Source of the DNA: Candidatus Gastranaerophilales bacterium
GTDB taxonomy: Bacteria > Cyanobacteriota > Vampirovibrionia > Gastranaerophilales > Gastranaerophilaceae
Length of the DNA stretch: 40,126 nucleotides
Assembly: GCA_947588755.1 (NCBI GenBank)
Contig: CANPZB010000013.1
Location: 1 to 40,126 of the forward strand
Direction of reading: 5' to 3'
The first letter of the stretch is position 1; every line of letters begins with the position of its first letter. The position numbers and the translations under genes were made by a program. This document shows positions 1 through 39,819 of this stretch, one piece after another. The notes under the pieces are model-generated. The model ran no database searches. It worked only from the letters and a program-made list of their open reading frames with translations, and was not told the origin of the DNA.

Positions 1-205
1 CATGCTGAATTTATTTCAGTATCTTAGAATTTTCGTGTCTTGCAAACTTAAAAATGACAAAAATAAGATCCTGAAACGTCTTGGATTTGCTCCACGCTCA
101 CAGAGTTTCGCATTTGTGGCTTCGCCACAGTATGCTCAATCTGTTCGCTATCCGGACTCGTTACCACTCCGTCCGTCCGCAAATCCGCAAGTTCAGGATG
201 ACATG
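1..205 (+). repeat. Modular palindromic repeat, partly cut by window edge (carries the 'D' module)
   Basis: A left hairpin half (GCTGAA...TTCAGTAT, about 4-23) is followed by TTTTCGTGTCTT, which recurs next to other copies. Then AAGATCCTGAAAC (66-77), the 16-mer GTCTTGGATTTGCTCC (78-93), a module with its own hairpin TGTGGC-TTCG-GCCACA (115-130), and the closing half GTTCAGGATGACATG (191-205). The whole 66-205 block recurs in reverse complement at 13383-13522, with only a few substitutions and one 1-nt length difference. The open frame of the downstream gene reads through it without a stop. Confidence 0.85.
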
Positions 206-2179
206 GGGTGGTTTAGGTGCGATCTTTTTGGTGCTTTAGCACCCGTAACGAACCTTTCACCTCTCACTTCTCACTTTTCACCAAAACCCGCCTTCACCCT
301 AGCCGAAATGATGGTGGTAATGCTAATTTTAAGTATAGTAATGGCTGCATTCGCACCCGTAATGACAACAAGGTCAAAGGTAGATTTGTCCAGTCCTTGG
401 CGTTATATGGCGAACAATGCGGACATATACTACGGAACGGGAGCAAACCAAACCGCGGTAATCGGGGCGAATAGCAAAACAAACAACCCAAGCAGATTAG
501 AAATCAGCACAAGTTCCAATACGCAGAATCATATATTATTTAGACGCGGTAATGATGTATTAGGTTGGTTGTATATGTCTATCACCTCGTCTCCGATTCA
601 GGCTCACGGAGGTAGCAGTTTAATATTAGGCAATGCACCAATCCATGGTAGTCAAAATGTAATATTAGGCTTGAATAATTTAACAAAAGCAAACAGCGAT
701 GACTATGCACAGAATACAGTTGTTGGTGACAGAGCAATGGGAGATTTCACTATCGGTAACAATAATACGGCTGTAGGATTTTATTCTCAATATGGTGTAA
801 CCACAGTAAATGGTGCAACATCATTAGGTGCAGGAAGCAGGGCTACTGCGAATAATGCAATAGCTGTAGGTGGCTCCGATGATTTTGGAGATGCATCTAT
901 TGCCAGCGGAATAAAATCAATAGCCATTGGGCATTTTGCACAATCAACAGCAGAAAGTGCTGTATCTATCGGAACAGGGAGTAAAGCTACCAGCACCTCG
1001 GCAATAGCAATAGGGAATGGTGCAACTGCAAATAATACAAATATAGCAATAGGAAATGGTGCAACAAGTACGTCTTTTTCATCAACGGCCGTAGGTTATG
1101 GTGTAAATGCTTATGCGAAATACTCAATGGCTATGGGGACTAGCTCAAGTGCTAATGAGAATTCAATAGCCATTGGTCATGATGTCGAAGCTAAAGGAGT
1201 TCAGTCAGTAGCAATAGGTTCTGGTACTGTTTGGGCTTACGCCGAGGGTGCTATAGCTATAGGTCGTGCAGTACGTTCTGGACTTAAATGTATCAGTATA
1301 GGTGATAATGCTTTCGCTGCATGGTCGGAACACTCAATAGCCATAGGTGACAATGCGAAAACTTCAGCACCAAATGGTGGTGGTGGCACTAGTAATAGTT
1401 CAATAGCTATAGGACATCAAGCAACTGCAGACACTCATTATGATATAGCTATTGGATATTCTGCTCAAACTGTTTATTATTCTGATGGTGTCTTTGCTGA
1501 TGGTAGTTCAATAGCTATAGGTAATTCCGCAAAAGTTACTATAGGAAGTAATTCAATAGCTCTGGGCAAATCAGCTTCTGCACGTGGAAAGGATATAATA
1601 GCTCTGGGTACTTCAACTGACGCACGTGGAAGTAATTCAATAGCTATAGGTAATTCAGCTTATGCAGTAGGTAGCAATACAGTAGCTATTGGTTACAATG
1701 TAAAGACTTCTAATAATAATGAATTTGTCTTAGGAAATAGCAGTAACCAAGTTAAAATTCCCGGTAGTTTATTTGTGCAGGGTGCTCAAGTCACGTCAGA
1801 CAAACGATTAAAATACGTTAAATCGGAAAACCATATCGGGCTTGATGCTATCAAAAAAATGAAGGTATATAATTACACTTTCAAAGATGATAAAAAGCAA
1901 GTACCTCGAATCGGTGTCATTGCACAAGACATTCAAAAAATCCTGCCTGATTCTGTATTAAAAGGTTCTGACGGGTTTTTATCGGTCAGGATAGACGATA
2001 TTATTTATACTTTGGTTAATGCGATCAAGGAACTTGACGCAAAGGTTACGGCTTTGACTGCCGCAGTTAAAGAACATACAAATGTATTAAAACAGCATAC
2101 GCAAACACTTATGCAGGTACAAAAAGAAAACAAGGAAATAAAAGCCCGTCTTGACAGGCTTGAACGGCAGTTGAAATAG
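203..2179 (+). CDS. Prepilin-like N-terminus fused to YadA-type head repeats and an S74 chaperone domain
   Basis: A likely surface adhesin of 658 aa from this start. Residues 31-35 read FTLAE, the class III/type IV prepilin cleavage motif with Glu at +5, followed by a hydrophobic helix to about residue 53. Residues about 181-520 hold roughly 20 degenerate 14-residue repeats of the SIAIG-x-x-A-x-A type, the trimeric YadA/Hia head fold. Ser532 begins SDKRLK, the autocleavage motif of peptidase S74 intramolecular chaperones, followed by GVIAQD-like sequence and a C-terminal coiled coil (about 615-658). No YadA beta-barrel anchor is present, so export through a pilus-type system is inferred. The start is uncertain. 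ATG 203 has AGGA at 195-198, but both are supplied by the repeat, and the frame is open back to position 2 and may begin outside the window. A terminator follows at 2238. Confidence 0.8.
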   Translation: MGWFRCDLFGALAPVTNLSPLTSHFSPKPAFTLAEMMVVMLILSIVMAAFAPVMTTRSKVDLSSPWRYMANNADIYYGTGANQTAVIGANSKTNNPSRLEISTSSNTQNHILFRRGNDVLGWLYMSITSSPIQAHGGSSLILGNAPIHGSQNVILGLNNLTKANSDDYAQNTVVGDRAMGDFTIGNNNTAVGFYSQYGVTTVNGATSLGAGSRATANNAIAVGGSDDFGDASIASGIKSIAIGHFAQSTAESAVSIGTGSKATSTSAIAIGNGATANNTNIAIGNGATSTSFSSTAVGYGVNAYAKYSMAMGTSSSANENSIAIGHDVEAKGVQSVAIGSGTVWAYAEGAIAIGRAVRSGLKCISIGDNAFAAWSEHSIAIGDNAKTSAPNGGGGTSNSSIAIGHQATADTHYDIAIGYSAQTVYYSDGVFADGSSIAIGNSAKVTIGSNSIALGKSASARGKDIIALGTSTDARGSNSIAIGNSAYAVGSNTVAIGYNVKTSNNNEFVLGNSSNQVKIPGSLFVQGAQVTSDKRLKYVKSENHIGLDAIKKMKVYNYTFKDDKKQVPRIGVIAQDIQKILPDSVLKGSDGFLSVRIDDIIYTLVNAIKELDAKVTALTAAVKEHTNVLKQHTQTLMQVQKENKEIKARLDRLERQLK

Positions 2180-9515: not shown

Positions 9516-12500
9516 ATGAGAACCGGCAGTACATCAGGTGAATATGGCGAAGGAACCTTCAATTATAACCATTATACAATTGAAGAACTTATTCGTCTTG
9601 AAGGTGAATCAAGAGAGCATTTCCTTGCAGGGTCTTTTTTACGGCAAAAATTCCTTGAATCGTTAAGCGACGGTGAAGTTCTTGATTCTACCTGGTCGCA
9701 GTATTCTTATGAAGAAATTTTGCAGATGGAAGCTGAAGGGGTTGTAATTCCCGAGGATATTCTTGCCCAAGCACATGCCGCTCAGGCGGAAGATACGGCG
9801 AGTTTGCAGGCACAAACCGATGAGTCGATACAGGATGAAGATATCAACGGAACCGCAAGCGACGAAAACAATGACGATACAACAAAACGCGGGGCATCGT
9901 TTTTTGAGCTTGTCGGAAAAGCTTCGGGGCAAATTAAAACAAGTGAAAAGAAACAAGATGAAATACAAGATGCGATAGATGAGTTAACTCCGCAGGTAAA
10001 AAAACTTACGGGGCAGACGGAAGATTTTAAAAAGTTCCGCGAAAATGCACTTGAAAGACTTAAAGATATAGTAGATGAATGGAAAGATTTAAAACGAAAA
10101 GTTGACAGGGGAGAAAAGCTTACCCCGTCCGAGGGTGAACGCTATCAGGAATTGAGTGCGATGTTTGACAAGGAAAACGACTCTCTGCAGTCAAACAGCG
10201 GTACGGCAAAAAGTGAAATGCGTCATATTGAAAATTCTTTGCGTGAGATAGATGAACTTGCACGACAGGGCGAGGACATAGGGGAAGAAACCATGGATGT
10301 TGGTAATGACCTTAAAAGTTATATAACCAAACCTTCGGTTAAAAACGGATTTAAAATGTTCCTAAATCCTTTTGGCTTGTACGGGTCGTTAGTGTTCATG
10401 TTAATAGCAGGCAGCATAGCAAAAGAAGCGATAAAAAAAGGCGGCGATATCGAAGATTTTTCGGAAGACACACTTATAACCGCAAACCAGATAGCGACTC
10501 TGCTTGATATTGAAAAGCCGTTATCAGAGCCTAAAAACGATGATACGCAGGCGGAAGCTCAGGCAGAACAAGTCGAAGGTGAAACAGGCAGTGTTGATGA
10601 AACGACAGCCGATGTGGCGGAACAGGACGGTGACGAACAAGTTATCACACAAGCGACGGATACACTTGATGGTGCATTAACGGGCATGCCGACAGTTACA
10701 AGTGCGGGAACGGGCGATGTTACACCTGAAACACCTTCGGGCGGCACTTCTTCGGGTTCAAATTCCGAAACGGCAGGCGATGAAGGCGGTCTTTCAACTT
10801 CTTCATCAAGTTTCAGATTATACGGTTCGTCAGTTGCTTCATCAGGTGGTACATCAGGTGGTGCATCAAATTCATCCGACTCTGACGATACAGGCATGAA
10901 TATAGATAAAAATAATGCCAAATCAGAAGGTAAAAAAGCTTCATCCGAAATGGGTGATATGATTAATGATACCAACAAAGCCGCTCAAGAAACAAAAGAA
11001 ACTACAAGGGACGAAGAAAAATCCGAAAAAGAACTCGACAAAGAAACCAAAAAATTAGATAAAGAGATTAAAAAAGATACAAAAGAAATTGAAAAAATTG
11101 CAAAAGAAGGTGAAAAAACTGAAAAAGAATTAATCAAACTTCAAGCACGCAACGAAGAATTGAATGCGGAAAATGAAGAACTTATAAATGCAACTCTTAC
11201 CGAACAACAAAAACAACAAGGGCAGACACCTCAAGTTCAACCCGATAATTTGGCTTCATCTTCTGCATCCGTCGTACTTAACGCTAACGGTAATTCACAG
11301 GAGAAAATAGACCAAAATATATCCCAAATAGACATAAACAGTGCAGAATTAAATGTTAACAATGCAAAATTCAAAATTTTCAGCAGAAAATTGAGCAAAG
11401 GACAGGCAAAAGTAAAATCGTTGTCCAAAAATATAAAAACCCAAACGAAAAAAATGGACAAAAAAGCCAGAACCCGCGATAAAATTGCAAGAGACAGACA
11501 AAAGGCGGAAGAAAAAAAACAGGCAAAAATGCAAAAACAACTTGGAATTGTCGGCATTTTTGAAAACGTATTTTCAATTGTTAGTGCCATAGGTTCAATT
11601 TTGTCATGTTTCCCGCTTACTGCACCTGCCGGTCAAGTACTGCTTTGGATTGGTCTTGCCGGTACCTTAAAATGCGGTATTGAAAAATGTGCAATATATG
11701 CCGCAAACGGTTACATGCAACAGGCATTTGTTGCGTTAGGTATGAGTATCGTTACGGCAGCAGCTTCTGCGGTTTCTTTAGGTGCAGCAGGAGGAGTAGC
11801 CAATGCTGCTTCAAAAGCTGCTCAAATGACTTTAAAACAAGTTATAGCAACATGTACCAGTGCAGCATTAAGTACAGTTTCTGCAAGTACAGGTATGGTA
11901 AATAATGTTCGGCAAACACAAGGTAAAGAAGCCATAGGGGCATTAAATATAGTTTCTTCAACCGCAGGTGCGTTAGCTGCTGCTACCAATTTATCAAGCT
12001 TTAAAAGCGGTAACGCGTTTGAAAAAATAGGTTCTATAGCAAGCACTGCAGGGGCATTGGTAAGCAGTACTTCTTCCGCAATATCCGAGTTTGGCGGTGA
12101 AAAACAGCAAAAATCAGCACAAATTTTAGGTTTAATCGGTACGGGGTTATCTGTAGCAGGTTCAGCTTTCTCAATGGGCGGCGGTATGAAAGCTAAAAAC
12201 GATGCCGCAAAAAATAAAATGGTACAAGCCGAAAATATAAAAATGTCACAGGATTTAAAAACACTCAAAGATGCAACTCCGGAACTCAAATTTCAGCAAA
12301 AAGATATGCTTGCGGAAATAGGTAAAACACTGAATTCAAGGACACAACCGCTTCAAGCCATACCAAGCAAAACAGGTAGTAACCCGCAGACAACGACCCC
12401 TACTACAACGCAAACAACGTCACCGACTACTACGCAAACAACTAATCAGACAACCGCACCCAAGAGCGATGATAATCAAACCACAAAACAAGAAGCCGAA

Positions 12501-13130
12501 ATCGCAAAAGCGGAAGAAACAGCTGAAACAGGTTCAGGCTCTAATACTTTAACAGACCCCAGAGCGGCAGAATTGCAGGCTAAAGCGGATGCAATTCAAA
12601 AAGAAGCACCCGTTGCGGAAGATAAACTTTCGCTTGATTTACAGCAAAACGACTTAGAAGCACAAGACAATATAAACCAACAGGAACTTGACAGAATTAA
12701 ATCGACAGAAAATGACAACCATCAACAGCAAAACAGCAAATCAAGAGAACAAAAACTTGCCGAAGAAGCCGCAAAGAGAAAAAATGACCTCAGTATCAAA
12801 GATGAAGATGTTGATACGGAAGAAATTCCCGAATTTAAAGAAGTTGTCGACAAAAAAGATAACGGCGGCAAAAGCAAATGGGAAAAAGGCTTAGAAATAG
12901 CCGGTGAGGCTCTGGGACTTGGTGCACAAATCAGTACAATAGCCGCAAGCAAAAAACAAAAAGAAGAACCCAAGAAAATAAAACAAATCAATTATCATTG
13001 GGACAGAATTCGATACATACAACGTGCCAACCAACGTTACCTGATGGGAGTAAGAAGATGGACATCAGGCGGGGGTTCTTCCGCATCAAAACTCATTGCC
13101 AAAAAATATCCTAAAAAGAAATTGGCATAA
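9516..13130 (+). CDS. Large protein of unknown function: coiled coils around a long hydrophobic Gly/Ala-rich domain
   Basis: I do not recognise this 1204-aa protein. It has no signal peptide. The N-terminus repeats a short motif (YTIEELIRLEGES, about residues 17-29; YSYEEILQMEAEG, about 63-75). A coiled coil follows (about 145-265), then a hydrophobic stretch (about 276-310), a Ser/Gly/Thr-rich linker (about 342-462), very long Lys/Glu coiled coils (about 489-565 and 629-672), and a hydrophobic, small-residue-rich domain (about 680-890) with several possible membrane helices. The tail holds a Thr/Gln-rich tract (about 952-989) and a very basic end. Coiled coil plus a hydrophobic Gly/Ala domain recalls pore-forming translocators of the IpaB/SipB/YopB kind, but there is no sequence-level proof. 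AAAGG precedes the ATG by five bases. It is a single gene between the trxA terminator and a repeat field. Confidence 0.75.
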   Translation: MRTGSTSGEYGEGTFNYNHYTIEELIRLEGESREHFLAGSFLRQKFLESLSDGEVLDSTWSQYSYEEILQMEAEGVVIPEDILAQAHAAQAEDTASLQAQTDESIQDEDINGTASDENNDDTTKRGASFFELVGKASGQIKTSEKKQDEIQDAIDELTPQVKKLTGQTEDFKKFRENALERLKDIVDEWKDLKRKVDRGEKLTPSEGERYQELSAMFDKENDSLQSNSGTAKSEMRHIENSLREIDELARQGEDIGEETMDVGNDLKSYITKPSVKNGFKMFLNPFGLYGSLVFMLIAGSIAKEAIKKGGDIEDFSEDTLITANQIATLLDIEKPLSEPKNDDTQAEAQAEQVEGETGSVDETTADVAEQDGDEQVITQATDTLDGALTGMPTVTSAGTGDVTPETPSGGTSSGSNSETAGDEGGLSTSSSSFRLYGSSVASSGGTSGGASNSSDSDDTGMNIDKNNAKSEGKKASSEMGDMINDTNKAAQETKETTRDEEKSEKELDKETKKLDKEIKKDTKEIEKIAKEGEKTEKELIKLQARNEELNAENEELINATLTEQQKQQGQTPQVQPDNLASSSASVVLNANGNSQEKIDQNISQIDINSAELNVNNAKFKIFSRKLSKGQAKVKSLSKNIKTQTKKMDKKARTRDKIARDRQKAEEKKQAKMQKQLGIVGIFENVFSIVSAIGSILSCFPLTAPAGQVLLWIGLAGTLKCGIEKCAIYAANGYMQQAFVALGMSIVTAAASAVSLGAAGGVANAASKAAQMTLKQVIATCTSAALSTVSASTGMVNNVRQTQGKEAIGALNIVSSTAGALAAATNLSSFKSGNAFEKIGSIASTAGALVSSTSSAISEFGGEKQQKSAQILGLIGTGLSVAGSAFSMGGGMKAKNDAAKNKMVQAENIKMSQDLKTLKDATPELKFQQKDMLAEIGKTLNSRTQPLQAIPSKTGSNPQTTTPTTTQTTSPTTTQTTNQTTAPKSDDNQTTKQEAEIAKAEETAETGSGSNTLTDPRAAELQAKADAIQKEAPVAEDKLSLDLQQNDLEAQDNINQQELDRIKSTENDNHQQQNSKSREQKLAEEAAKRKNDLSIKDEDVDTEEIPEFKEVVDKKDNGGKSKWEKGLEIAGEALGLGAQISTIAASKKQKEEPKKIKQINYHWDRIRYIQRANQRYLMGVRRWTSGGGSSASKLIAKKYPKKKLA

Positions 13131-33043: not shown

Positions 33044-33643
33044 ATGAAATCTAAAAAATTTATGAATGCAAACGCATTTACACTTGCGGAAGTGTTGATT
33101 ACTTTAGGTATTATCGGGGTTGTTGCAGCTATGACTATGCCAACGTTACTGAATTCTACTCAAGGTGCTCAATATAAAACCGCATACAAAAAAGCGTTAT
33201 CAGTTTTATCACAGGCAGTTGTACTTAACATAGCATTAGATGATTACGGTTTGGCCGATACAACAGTAACATCTACAGACGGCACATCTCCAAGTATGTA
33301 CAATTTGTTTAAAAATCGTATGAATGTCGTTAAAACAACCACGAGTACATACAGTATTTCAGGATTTGAACCCAGTTCAAGCAACTATAACTTCTTCTTT
33401 AATGACGGTATTTCGTTATCATTCCCGGATACTGCAAAAGGATGTACGGAAGCTAGCCCTTGTAAAGGTTTTATTGATGTAAACGGTGAAAAAGCTCCTA
33501 ACAAAAAAGTTACATGTGACGGAAATACAAAAGATGATAATTGCGTTGTAAGTAATCCTACAGACGTTTATCCGGTCATCATGTATGACCAATCTATACT
33601 TCCTAACTCTGATGCAGCAAAAGCTGTATTGTTCGGAAAATAA
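33044..33643 (+). CDS. Type IV pilin-like protein (prepilin N-terminal methylation motif)
   Basis: A 199-aa prepilin-type protein. The leader MKSKKFMNANA is short and basic, with cleavage expected before FTLAE (Glu at +5). The hydrophobic helix VLITLGIIGVVAAMTMPTLL follows. The globular part has two close Cys pairs (GCTEASPC and TCDGNTKDDNC) that could form disulfides. It is a single gene with its own strong promoter and terminator, far from any pilus assembly gene in the window, as is common for the many scattered pilin-like genes of this bacterial group. It could be a pseudopilin, a minor pilin or a secreted protein using the same export route. Confidence 0.88.
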   Translation: MKSKKFMNANAFTLAEVLITLGIIGVVAAMTMPTLLNSTQGAQYKTAYKKALSVLSQAVVLNIALDDYGLADTTVTSTDGTSPSMYNLFKNRMNVVKTTTSTYSISGFEPSSSNYNFFFNDGISLSFPDTAKGCTEASPCKGFIDVNGEKAPNKKVTCDGNTKDDNCVVSNPTDVYPVIMYDQSILPNSDAAKAVLFGK

Positions 33644-39105: not shown

Positions 39106-39819
39106 TCAAAACTTTATCGGGTAATCGTCAGGGATTTTCCACCCGTTATACTGAATTATAGCTGCACAATTCAGTGTTTCATTTGATGTATTAGTATTTT
39201 TACAGCCTGCTTTTAAAGTTTCATAATTACCATCCCAATAATATTTCCAAGGTTCAAAACCTTTGTTATAATTATATCTCCAAGCATAATTAGTTGAATT
39301 AGGCATAAAATTAAAATTAAATGCACATTTGCCAAAATCACATTTACCTTTAGCTGAAGCGTAGAAAAGCCAATCTCTTGTATTAGCAATATTCATTTGA
39401 AGCAACGCTGTTCCGTCGGAGAAATATATTTTTAAACGTCCATACGAATCAATTTCTTCTTTAACTATTTTTAAATTTGGAGCCAGATATTTGTTAAACC
39501 ACTTTTGGGCTTCTGAACTTCCTTCGATAGGTTTTCCCTTTTCATCAAATTGTGCACCACTTAAGTCCTGATACCAGTATTTTTTATCTCCATATTGAAC
39601 TTCCGCCAATTGCACCGCTTGGTTTATTGATGAATAAAACTTTGCTAAACGGGTTTCAACAACTTTCTTTTGGTGCTTCGCGATTAATGACGGCATAGTC
39701 ATTGCCGCTACAATACCGATAATCCCGAGGGTGATTAAGACCTCCGCCAAAGTAAAGGCGAGTCTGTCATTCTGAACTTGTTTCAGAATCTTTTTAACTT
39801 TTAAAATTTTTTCTTTCAT
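39106..39819 (-). CDS. Type IV pilin-like protein with a repeat-encoded leader peptide
   Basis: A 237-aa prepilin-type protein with the motif LAFTLAEVLITLGIIG, cleavage before FTLAE and Glu at +5, then the usual hydrophobic helix (IVAAMTMPSLI). The mature part is rich in Tyr, Trp, Asn and Lys and has two Cys pairs (KCDFGKC and the later AGCK/LNC). Its leader MKEKILKVKKILKQVQNDRLA is longer than normal. The segment ILKQVQND is a translation of the palindromic repeat hairpin at 39769-39789, which here reads ATTCTGAA/TTCAGAAT. AAAGGAAC lies before the ATG. Upstream is a repeat field; downstream lies the convergent SH3-like pair. Confidence 0.88.
   Translation of the reverse strand: MKEKILKVKKILKQVQNDRLAFTLAEVLITLGIIGIVAAMTMPSLIAKHQKKVVETRLAKFYSSINQAVQLAEVQYGDKKYWYQDLSGAQFDEKGKPIEGSSEAQKWFNKYLAPNLKIVKEEIDSYGRLKIYFSDGTALLQMNIANTRDWLFYASAKGKCDFGKCAFNFNFMPNSTNYAWRYNYNKGFEPWKYYWDGNYETLKAGCKNTNTSNETLNCAAIIQYNGWKIPDDYPIKF
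39769..39789 (-). repeat. Palindromic repeat hairpin inside prepilin leader codons
   Basis: Stem ATTCTGAA/TTCAGAAT with the common 5-nt loop, flanked by the usual GTCAT on one side and TCTT on the other. It is in frame in the leader of the 39106-39819 gene and encodes ILKQVQN. Both stem halves carry the matching C-to-T/G-to-A change relative to the common copy, so pairing is kept. Confidence 0.88.

Follow-up and report, generated by a model that had tools for sequence, protein, structure and literature searches.

A Gastranaerophilales protein joining a prepilin start, a YadA-type head and an S74 domain: a likely pilus-displayed, self-trimming adhesin

The protein encoded at nt 203-2179 of a 40,126-nt stretch of Gastranaerophilales DNA (the window) is best read as a modular type IV pilin that carries a homotrimeric adhesin module resembling a phage fibre. 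This module would be folded by a C-terminal S74 domain, trimmed of that domain and displayed at the tip of a pilus; we put the probability of this reading at roughly 0.6. The sequences themselves show which modules are present, how well the catalytic residues are conserved, that a pilus machine is encoded and how the paralogues vary; the proposed mechanism of a pilus-displayed, self-trimming adhesin is likely.

Anatomy of the fusion protein and its gene

The features of the gene, in window coordinates, are as follows.

203-2179, + strand: prepilin - YadA head - S74 fusion protein of 658 aa, read from ATG203 (Pfam and motif scan)
2-202, + strand: in-frame upstream extension through intergenic repeat copies (CATGCTGAATTTATTTCAG / TTCAGGATGACATG) (DNA repeat comparison)
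203-292, + strand: prepilin leader, aa 1-30, ending ...SPKPA, with a predicted prepilin-peptidase cut after Ala30 (Pfam, motif)
293-373, + strand: hydrophobic helix of the pilin type (residues 1-27 of the mature protein) bearing Glu5 and Pro22 (AlphaFold2 helix, family motif)
374-766, + strand: conserved N-terminal beta module (SPWRYMANNADIYYGTGANQTAVIG...) (model and paralogue comparison)
767-1700, + strand: YadA-type head of 21 repeats of about 14 aa, a left-handed beta roll that varies between paralogues (Pfam, motifs, Foldseek)
1701-1795, + strand: short neck joining the head to the predicted cut site (AlphaFold2 model)
1796-2017, + strand: S74 / intramolecular chaperone domain with the predicted dyad Ser532 (nt 1796-1798) and Lys537 (nt 1811-1813) (Pfam, alignment, fold)
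1991-2173, + strand: C-terminal long helix, a predicted trimeric coiled coil, overlapping the end of the S74 domain (AlphaFold2 models)
2238-2266, + strand: intrinsic-terminator-like hairpin, CTCCCG...CGGGAG and then a T-rich run (consensus match only)

The three-module anatomy of this open reading frame (ORF) is certain. The only Pfam matches above cut-off in the 658-aa protein are, from the N to the C terminus, N_methyl (PF07963; aa 30-49, 3e-6, 26.9 bits against a cut-off of 21.2), YadA_head (PF05658; 1e-23, 83.6 bits, 11 stretches) and Peptidase_S74 (PF13884; aa 532-586, 2e-13, 50.7 bits against a cut-off of 22), and TIGR02532 is also above its own cut-off. The modules thus lie in one chain at the positions given by an earlier reading made from the letters alone (the sequence-only reading), and the S74 and YadA head profiles that it had proposed as a check both matched. 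Its count of about 20 head repeats was correct, since the motif scan finds 21 YadA-type motifs at aa 189-494, spaced mostly by 14 residues, and SDKRLK begins at Ser532 (nt 1796), exactly where it had been placed. The YadA membrane anchor, which had been called missing, is indeed absent from the 658-aa protein by Pfam, and a profile search with PF03895, the classical YadA anchor, finds it in none of 13 genomes of the order.

The description of the N terminus as a pilin-like anchor stands only in part. A class III signal is present (Ala30 at -1, Phe31 at +1, Glu35 at +5, followed by a hydrophobic helix), as is Pro22 of the helix; beyond the signal, no pilin domain profile of Pfam or TIGR rises above cut-off. 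The pilin part consists of the leader and about 27 helix residues, with a beta-rich module next in place of a pilin globular domain. Because this globular domain is missing, membership of the type IV pilins is partial; membership of the S74 family is firm.

Read from an in-frame start further upstream, at nt 2, the ORF would yield 725 aa instead of 658, but the extension over nt 2-202 is probably translated only partly or not at all. Before ATG203 stands AGGATGAC, which derives from the intergenic repeat. Of the 30 prepilins examined, 16 have a repeat of the TTCAGGATGACATG type within their open leader region (window 192-205; L196-L223), and the density for comparison is 12 repeat copies in 40 kb, both strands counted. 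Since this type of repeat is able to supply an ATG as well as an AGGA stretch resembling a ribosome-binding site, spreading intergenic repeats may create prepilin leaders. Downstream of the gene, nt 2374-2998 hold dense palindromic and direct repeats, among them three 146-nt copies and several 31-nt inverted pairs, which are common to the flanks of paralogues. Further along the window, nt 9516-13130 encode a protein of 1204 aa that is hydrophobic in its middle and has long stretches of charged, Thr/Ser-rich and coiled sequence.

Structure prediction was performed with AlphaFold2 on a monomer of the window protein from nt 248. The model has a helix of 23 residues (18-40) and a beta roll that is predicted with confidence over most of residues 170-500; the S74 part is poorly predicted in the full-length monomer, and a long helix forms the C terminus. 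When the S74 end was modelled separately, with 29 sequences, confidence was good from around residue 50 onward. By fold this end matches the MyRF ICA (7dc3, E 9.5e-6) and then 3gud and 3gw6 with weaker E-values; sequence searches agree, matching the S74 part to 7dc3 and to phage chaperones such as 3gud. The sequence-only reading had spoken of a phage-type intramolecular chaperone, and these matches bear it out. According to Foldseek the head is closest to BpaC, then to EibD, CbpF and YadA, and the structures of BpaC (7o23) and YadA (1p9h) are matched by both sequence and fold.

The catalytic residues are conserved throughout. The S, D and K of SDxxxK are invariant among 41 aligned diverse S74 domains and likewise in a 29-sequence alignment that includes phage and Bacteroidota sequences. 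The same dyad is formed by S587/K592 in MyRF and S911/K916 in endoNF, and in MyRF both Ser and Lys are required and cleavage requires the trimer (PMC8326128). In an S74 adhesive trimer of Bdellovibrio the cut falls at the equivalent Ser, and the substitution S782A abolishes it (PMC10769870).

The S74 family across the order

The window belongs to a genome of the Candidatus Gastranaerophilales (Melainabacteria) type (1.83 Mb in 89 contigs), and the named relatives, from a search of genome contigs with a single-protein query, are likewise Candidatus Gastranaerophilales / Melainabacteria genomes. The window genome gave four S74 matches, on contigs C13, C17, C23 and C71. Four S74 genes in all are likely, because C17 and C71 begin inside an S74 gene and C35 and C57 end within the 5' halves. 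The domain is present in 27 of 59 relatives, with up to 12 matches per genome.

A prepilin start is close to a rule in this family. The fetched loci supplied a counted set of 113 S74 ORFs from three families of the order, 100 of them with an intact 5' end, and the prepilin pattern stands at the start of 99 of the 100. The sole exception (L155) was rejected as an S74 protein lacking a prepilin, for it is a frame-shifted copy whose prepilin lies upstream in another frame. Glu5 was imposed by the search pattern and the Pfam N_methyl match is independent of that pattern; Pro22, which the pattern did not require, is found in 100 of 102 family members, and Ala or Gly occupies position -1 in 101 of 102. 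Outside the counted set, a 316-aa S74 ORF of the order (L096:4400-5400) has no prepilin start and no prepilin motif in its locus, and L076 of family f4, a distant S74 protein that has no genuine prepilin, was left out of the count.

Beyond the order, the prepilin start is found in none of seven S74 proteins of other Cyanobacteriota, none of eight S74 matches in more distant genomes (several of which resemble ordinary secreted proteins) and none of 51 related viral ORFs. Because these ORFs lack it, the prepilin start is, on the sequences compared, a trait of the S74 proteins of this order and not of S74 at large. The near-universal pairing of pilin and S74 suggests one shared, fast-changing mode of adhesin display in the order.

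The ends of these proteins are constant and the heads vary. Within one genome, paralogues share 81-100% identity in the helix, 66-96% in the S74 domain and 24-62% in the head. A DNA comparison of the window gene with the C23 gene gives 91% identity over nt 254-577 and 75% over the S74 end, with no DNA match across the head; the C71 copy shares 86.5% identity with the window over nt 1001-2812. Head exchange or strong diversification leaves such a pattern, which is what one would expect of surface-exposed adhesins.

The pilus machine, three-gene sets and rival readings

The machine encoded in the window genome resembles a type IV pilus system that has PilT-type ATPases, not a secretion-only type II system. 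Genes of the PilB, PilC and secretin types form one cluster (C45, L187), a prepilin peptidase lies on C2 (C2:70115), and two PilT-family ATPases score above cut-off. PilB and the secretin are named here by family only, because their scores fall below the strict equivalog cut-offs. A survey of pilB- and pilD-type genes had been suggested from the sequence alone, and both kinds are present; of the pilus or type II-like machine proposed at that stage, the pilus half is favored by these genes and a secretion-only type II system is the less fitting. In one relative (G019, locus L193), an S74 pilin gene lies directly upstream of lipoprotein-secretin-PilB-PilC genes, an adjacency that could arise by chance among the 12 S74 matches of that genome. 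The S74 pilin genes of the window genome do not adjoin pilus genes. PF07963 is above cut-off in 104 ORFs of the window genome, two of which are in the window at nt 33044-33643 and 39106-39819. Other family members have 54-93 such ORFs per genome, those of f6 and f7 have 11-27, and more distant genomes 2-12; the 104 amount to a striking expansion of prepilin-type proteins.

With this machine, display of the adhesin could proceed in five steps, in which the trimer, its cleavage, its position at the tip and ligand binding are what we infer. From family knowledge, prepilin peptidase would cut the leader, leaving the helix with Glu5 and Pro22 anchored in the inner membrane and the head in the periplasm. 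Three chains would be aligned by the C-terminal coiled coil and the S74 domain, templating the beta-roll head. After the trimer has formed, the Ser532-Lys537 dyad would cut before Ser532 and free the chaperone. The three pilin helices would be built into the tip of the filament as it grows, in the way modelled for the TcpB homotrimer, and the head would therefore be carried out through the secretin. There, the exposed head would bind a surface, and paralogues with different heads on constant ends would constitute a changeable adhesin set. CofB and TcpB are the precedent for trimeric tip pilins, with the TcpB homotrimer at the pilus tip (PMC9565799). Filament incorporation is uncertain, because the helix is present without a pilin globular domain. 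The overall account of the sequence-only reading, in which a pilus machine handles a trimeric adhesin that is later released from its C-terminal chaperone, is the best-supported one; the order-wide prepilin rule, Pro22, the invariant Ser-Lys dyad and the conserved ends with a variable head all strengthen it.

Three-gene sets add a further aspect. In families f6 and f7, three S74 pilin genes stand in tandem; next to the triplet, in f7 and at most of the f6 loci, comes a fourth gene of the prepilin type, which has no S74 domain (L058:3722-4690; L066:8423-9322; L050:10121-11605). In a tree of the S74 domain, built on 88 columns and without resolution at its deep forks, nine species of genus g8 each have one member of three clades with moderate support (87/67, 91/91 and 87/95). 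Genomes G024 and G027 have S74 triplets of their own, each forming a separate clade. Every triplet member retains its own S74 domain and dyad. One speculative and doubtful proposal is that the triplets make heterotrimeric pilus tips, in which the S74 domains would select three different pilins, bring them into alignment and afterwards cut themselves off. The product would be a chaperone-made complex filling a minor pilin role of the GspI-J-K type, and the dispersed, head-varying homotrimeric adhesins, the window protein among them, would follow the same plan.

Set up as a rival explanation of the family, with S74 pairing the three pilins of each set and single-copy members such as the window protein forming homotrimers, this proposal is unlikely. 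The tandem genes with the ordinary prepilin gene behind them, the one gene per clade in nine species and the triplets of G024 and G027 all speak for it, and three genes for a three-fold fibre invite the idea. However, a dyad and an S74 domain in every member are what homotrimers would need, the S74 proteins known so far are homotrimers, and three genes may be merely three adhesins. A minor but real chance attaches instead to a trimeric adhesin that sits on a prepilin-type helix in the inner membrane, reaches into the periplasm and never enters a pilus. Such a protein would need only the transmembrane part of the pilin, which is all that remains here, and the 104 N_methyl ORFs, too many for one pilus, are compatible with a general anchor signal. 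A plain anchor would not need both Pro22 and Glu5, yet these are kept nearly throughout; the genome also encodes a pilus machine with a secretin, and the variable heads suggest exposure outside.

The remaining two explanations concern the origin and the activity of the S74 domain, and both are very improbable. A captured prophage tail fibre gene with a spurious signal and no role in the cell would account for the resemblance of head and S74 to phage tail fibres, but it is contradicted by window neighbours that read as ordinary cell genes with no phage structural genes alongside, by the absence of a prepilin start from the 51 viral ORFs and by retention of the fusion across three families. That S74 is a protease acting on other proteins, with the pilus presenting a peptidase, follows the 2021 survey of modular pilins, which reads the architecture IPR012902-IPR030392 as peptidase activity (PMC8179133). 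S74 instead acts in cis on its own chain and as a trimer only (PMC8326128, PMC10769870), and its place after a YadA head, with a coiled-coil end, is the layout of a chaperone.

Relation to known systems and significance

The combination of pilin and S74 has a precedent. Raynaud et al. (2021) counted it as one of the 15 commonest architectures of modular pilins, and their survey implies that it occurs in other phyla as well (PMC8179133). Like the type IV pilins of that architecture, the window protein has a prepilin start and then S74, a functional module grafted on a pilin; unlike the survey text, which gives none of these, the present account adds the YadA head, the trimer and the chaperone reading, and the survey's figure legend names no member of the Gastranaerophilales order (PMC8179133). 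The window protein differs further in lacking a pilin globular domain, and within the order nearly all S74 proteins show the pairing. The surprise that the sequence-only reading had implied for the fusion is reduced, as the architecture was already listed and is the normal form in this order.

Turning to other trimeric fibres, the mosaic adhesive trimeric (MAT) fibres of Bdellovibrio bacteriovorus are also cellular and multi-copy, with a constant N-terminal region and variable adhesive parts, and 13 of the 21 end in S74 (PMC10769870). The window family shares the S74 end, the variable fibre and the multiple copies. In MAT fibres a signal peptide precedes a separate N-terminal domain some 130 aa long, with no pilin anchor reported (PMC10769870), and the window protein is set apart by description through its prepilin start. 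With the trimeric autotransporter adhesins YadA, BpaC and SadA it shares a left-handed beta-roll head of repeats of about 14 residues; unlike them, it has an N-terminal pilin-like anchor and an S74 chaperone and no C-terminal beta-barrel. It resembles the minor pilins CofB and TcpB in being large and modular and, as proposed here, in trimerising at the pilus tip. Those proteins have a pilin domain with other beta domains and no S74 domain described, and self-trimming by S74 would be new for pili. The MyRF ICA and the phage endosialidase chaperones share the S74 fold, the Ser-Lys dyad and the C-terminal coiled coil. In MyRF the membrane anchor follows S74 and the N-terminal part is freed, whereas in the window protein the anchor is N-terminal and S74 would be freed. 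No paper linking S74, YadA heads and pilins was found in the open-licence literature; a BpaC paper that mentions S74 and pilin proved unrelated. What is new here is the YadA head, the chaperone reading, the near-universal pairing and the recurring three-gene sets.

If the pilus-tip reading is true, it shows a cell displaying a long trimeric fibre on a pilus, with a viral-type chaperone that folds the trimer and then departs, so that no bulky folding domain would be left on the tip. The peptidase reading of pilin-S74 proteins would become a testable folding mechanism, the paralogues would offer a collection of naturally varying heads that are already mounted on constant ends, and the three-gene sets make the stoichiometry of the pilus tip directly testable. 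For the organisms themselves, it would suggest a mode of attachment for these gut relatives of cyanobacteria.
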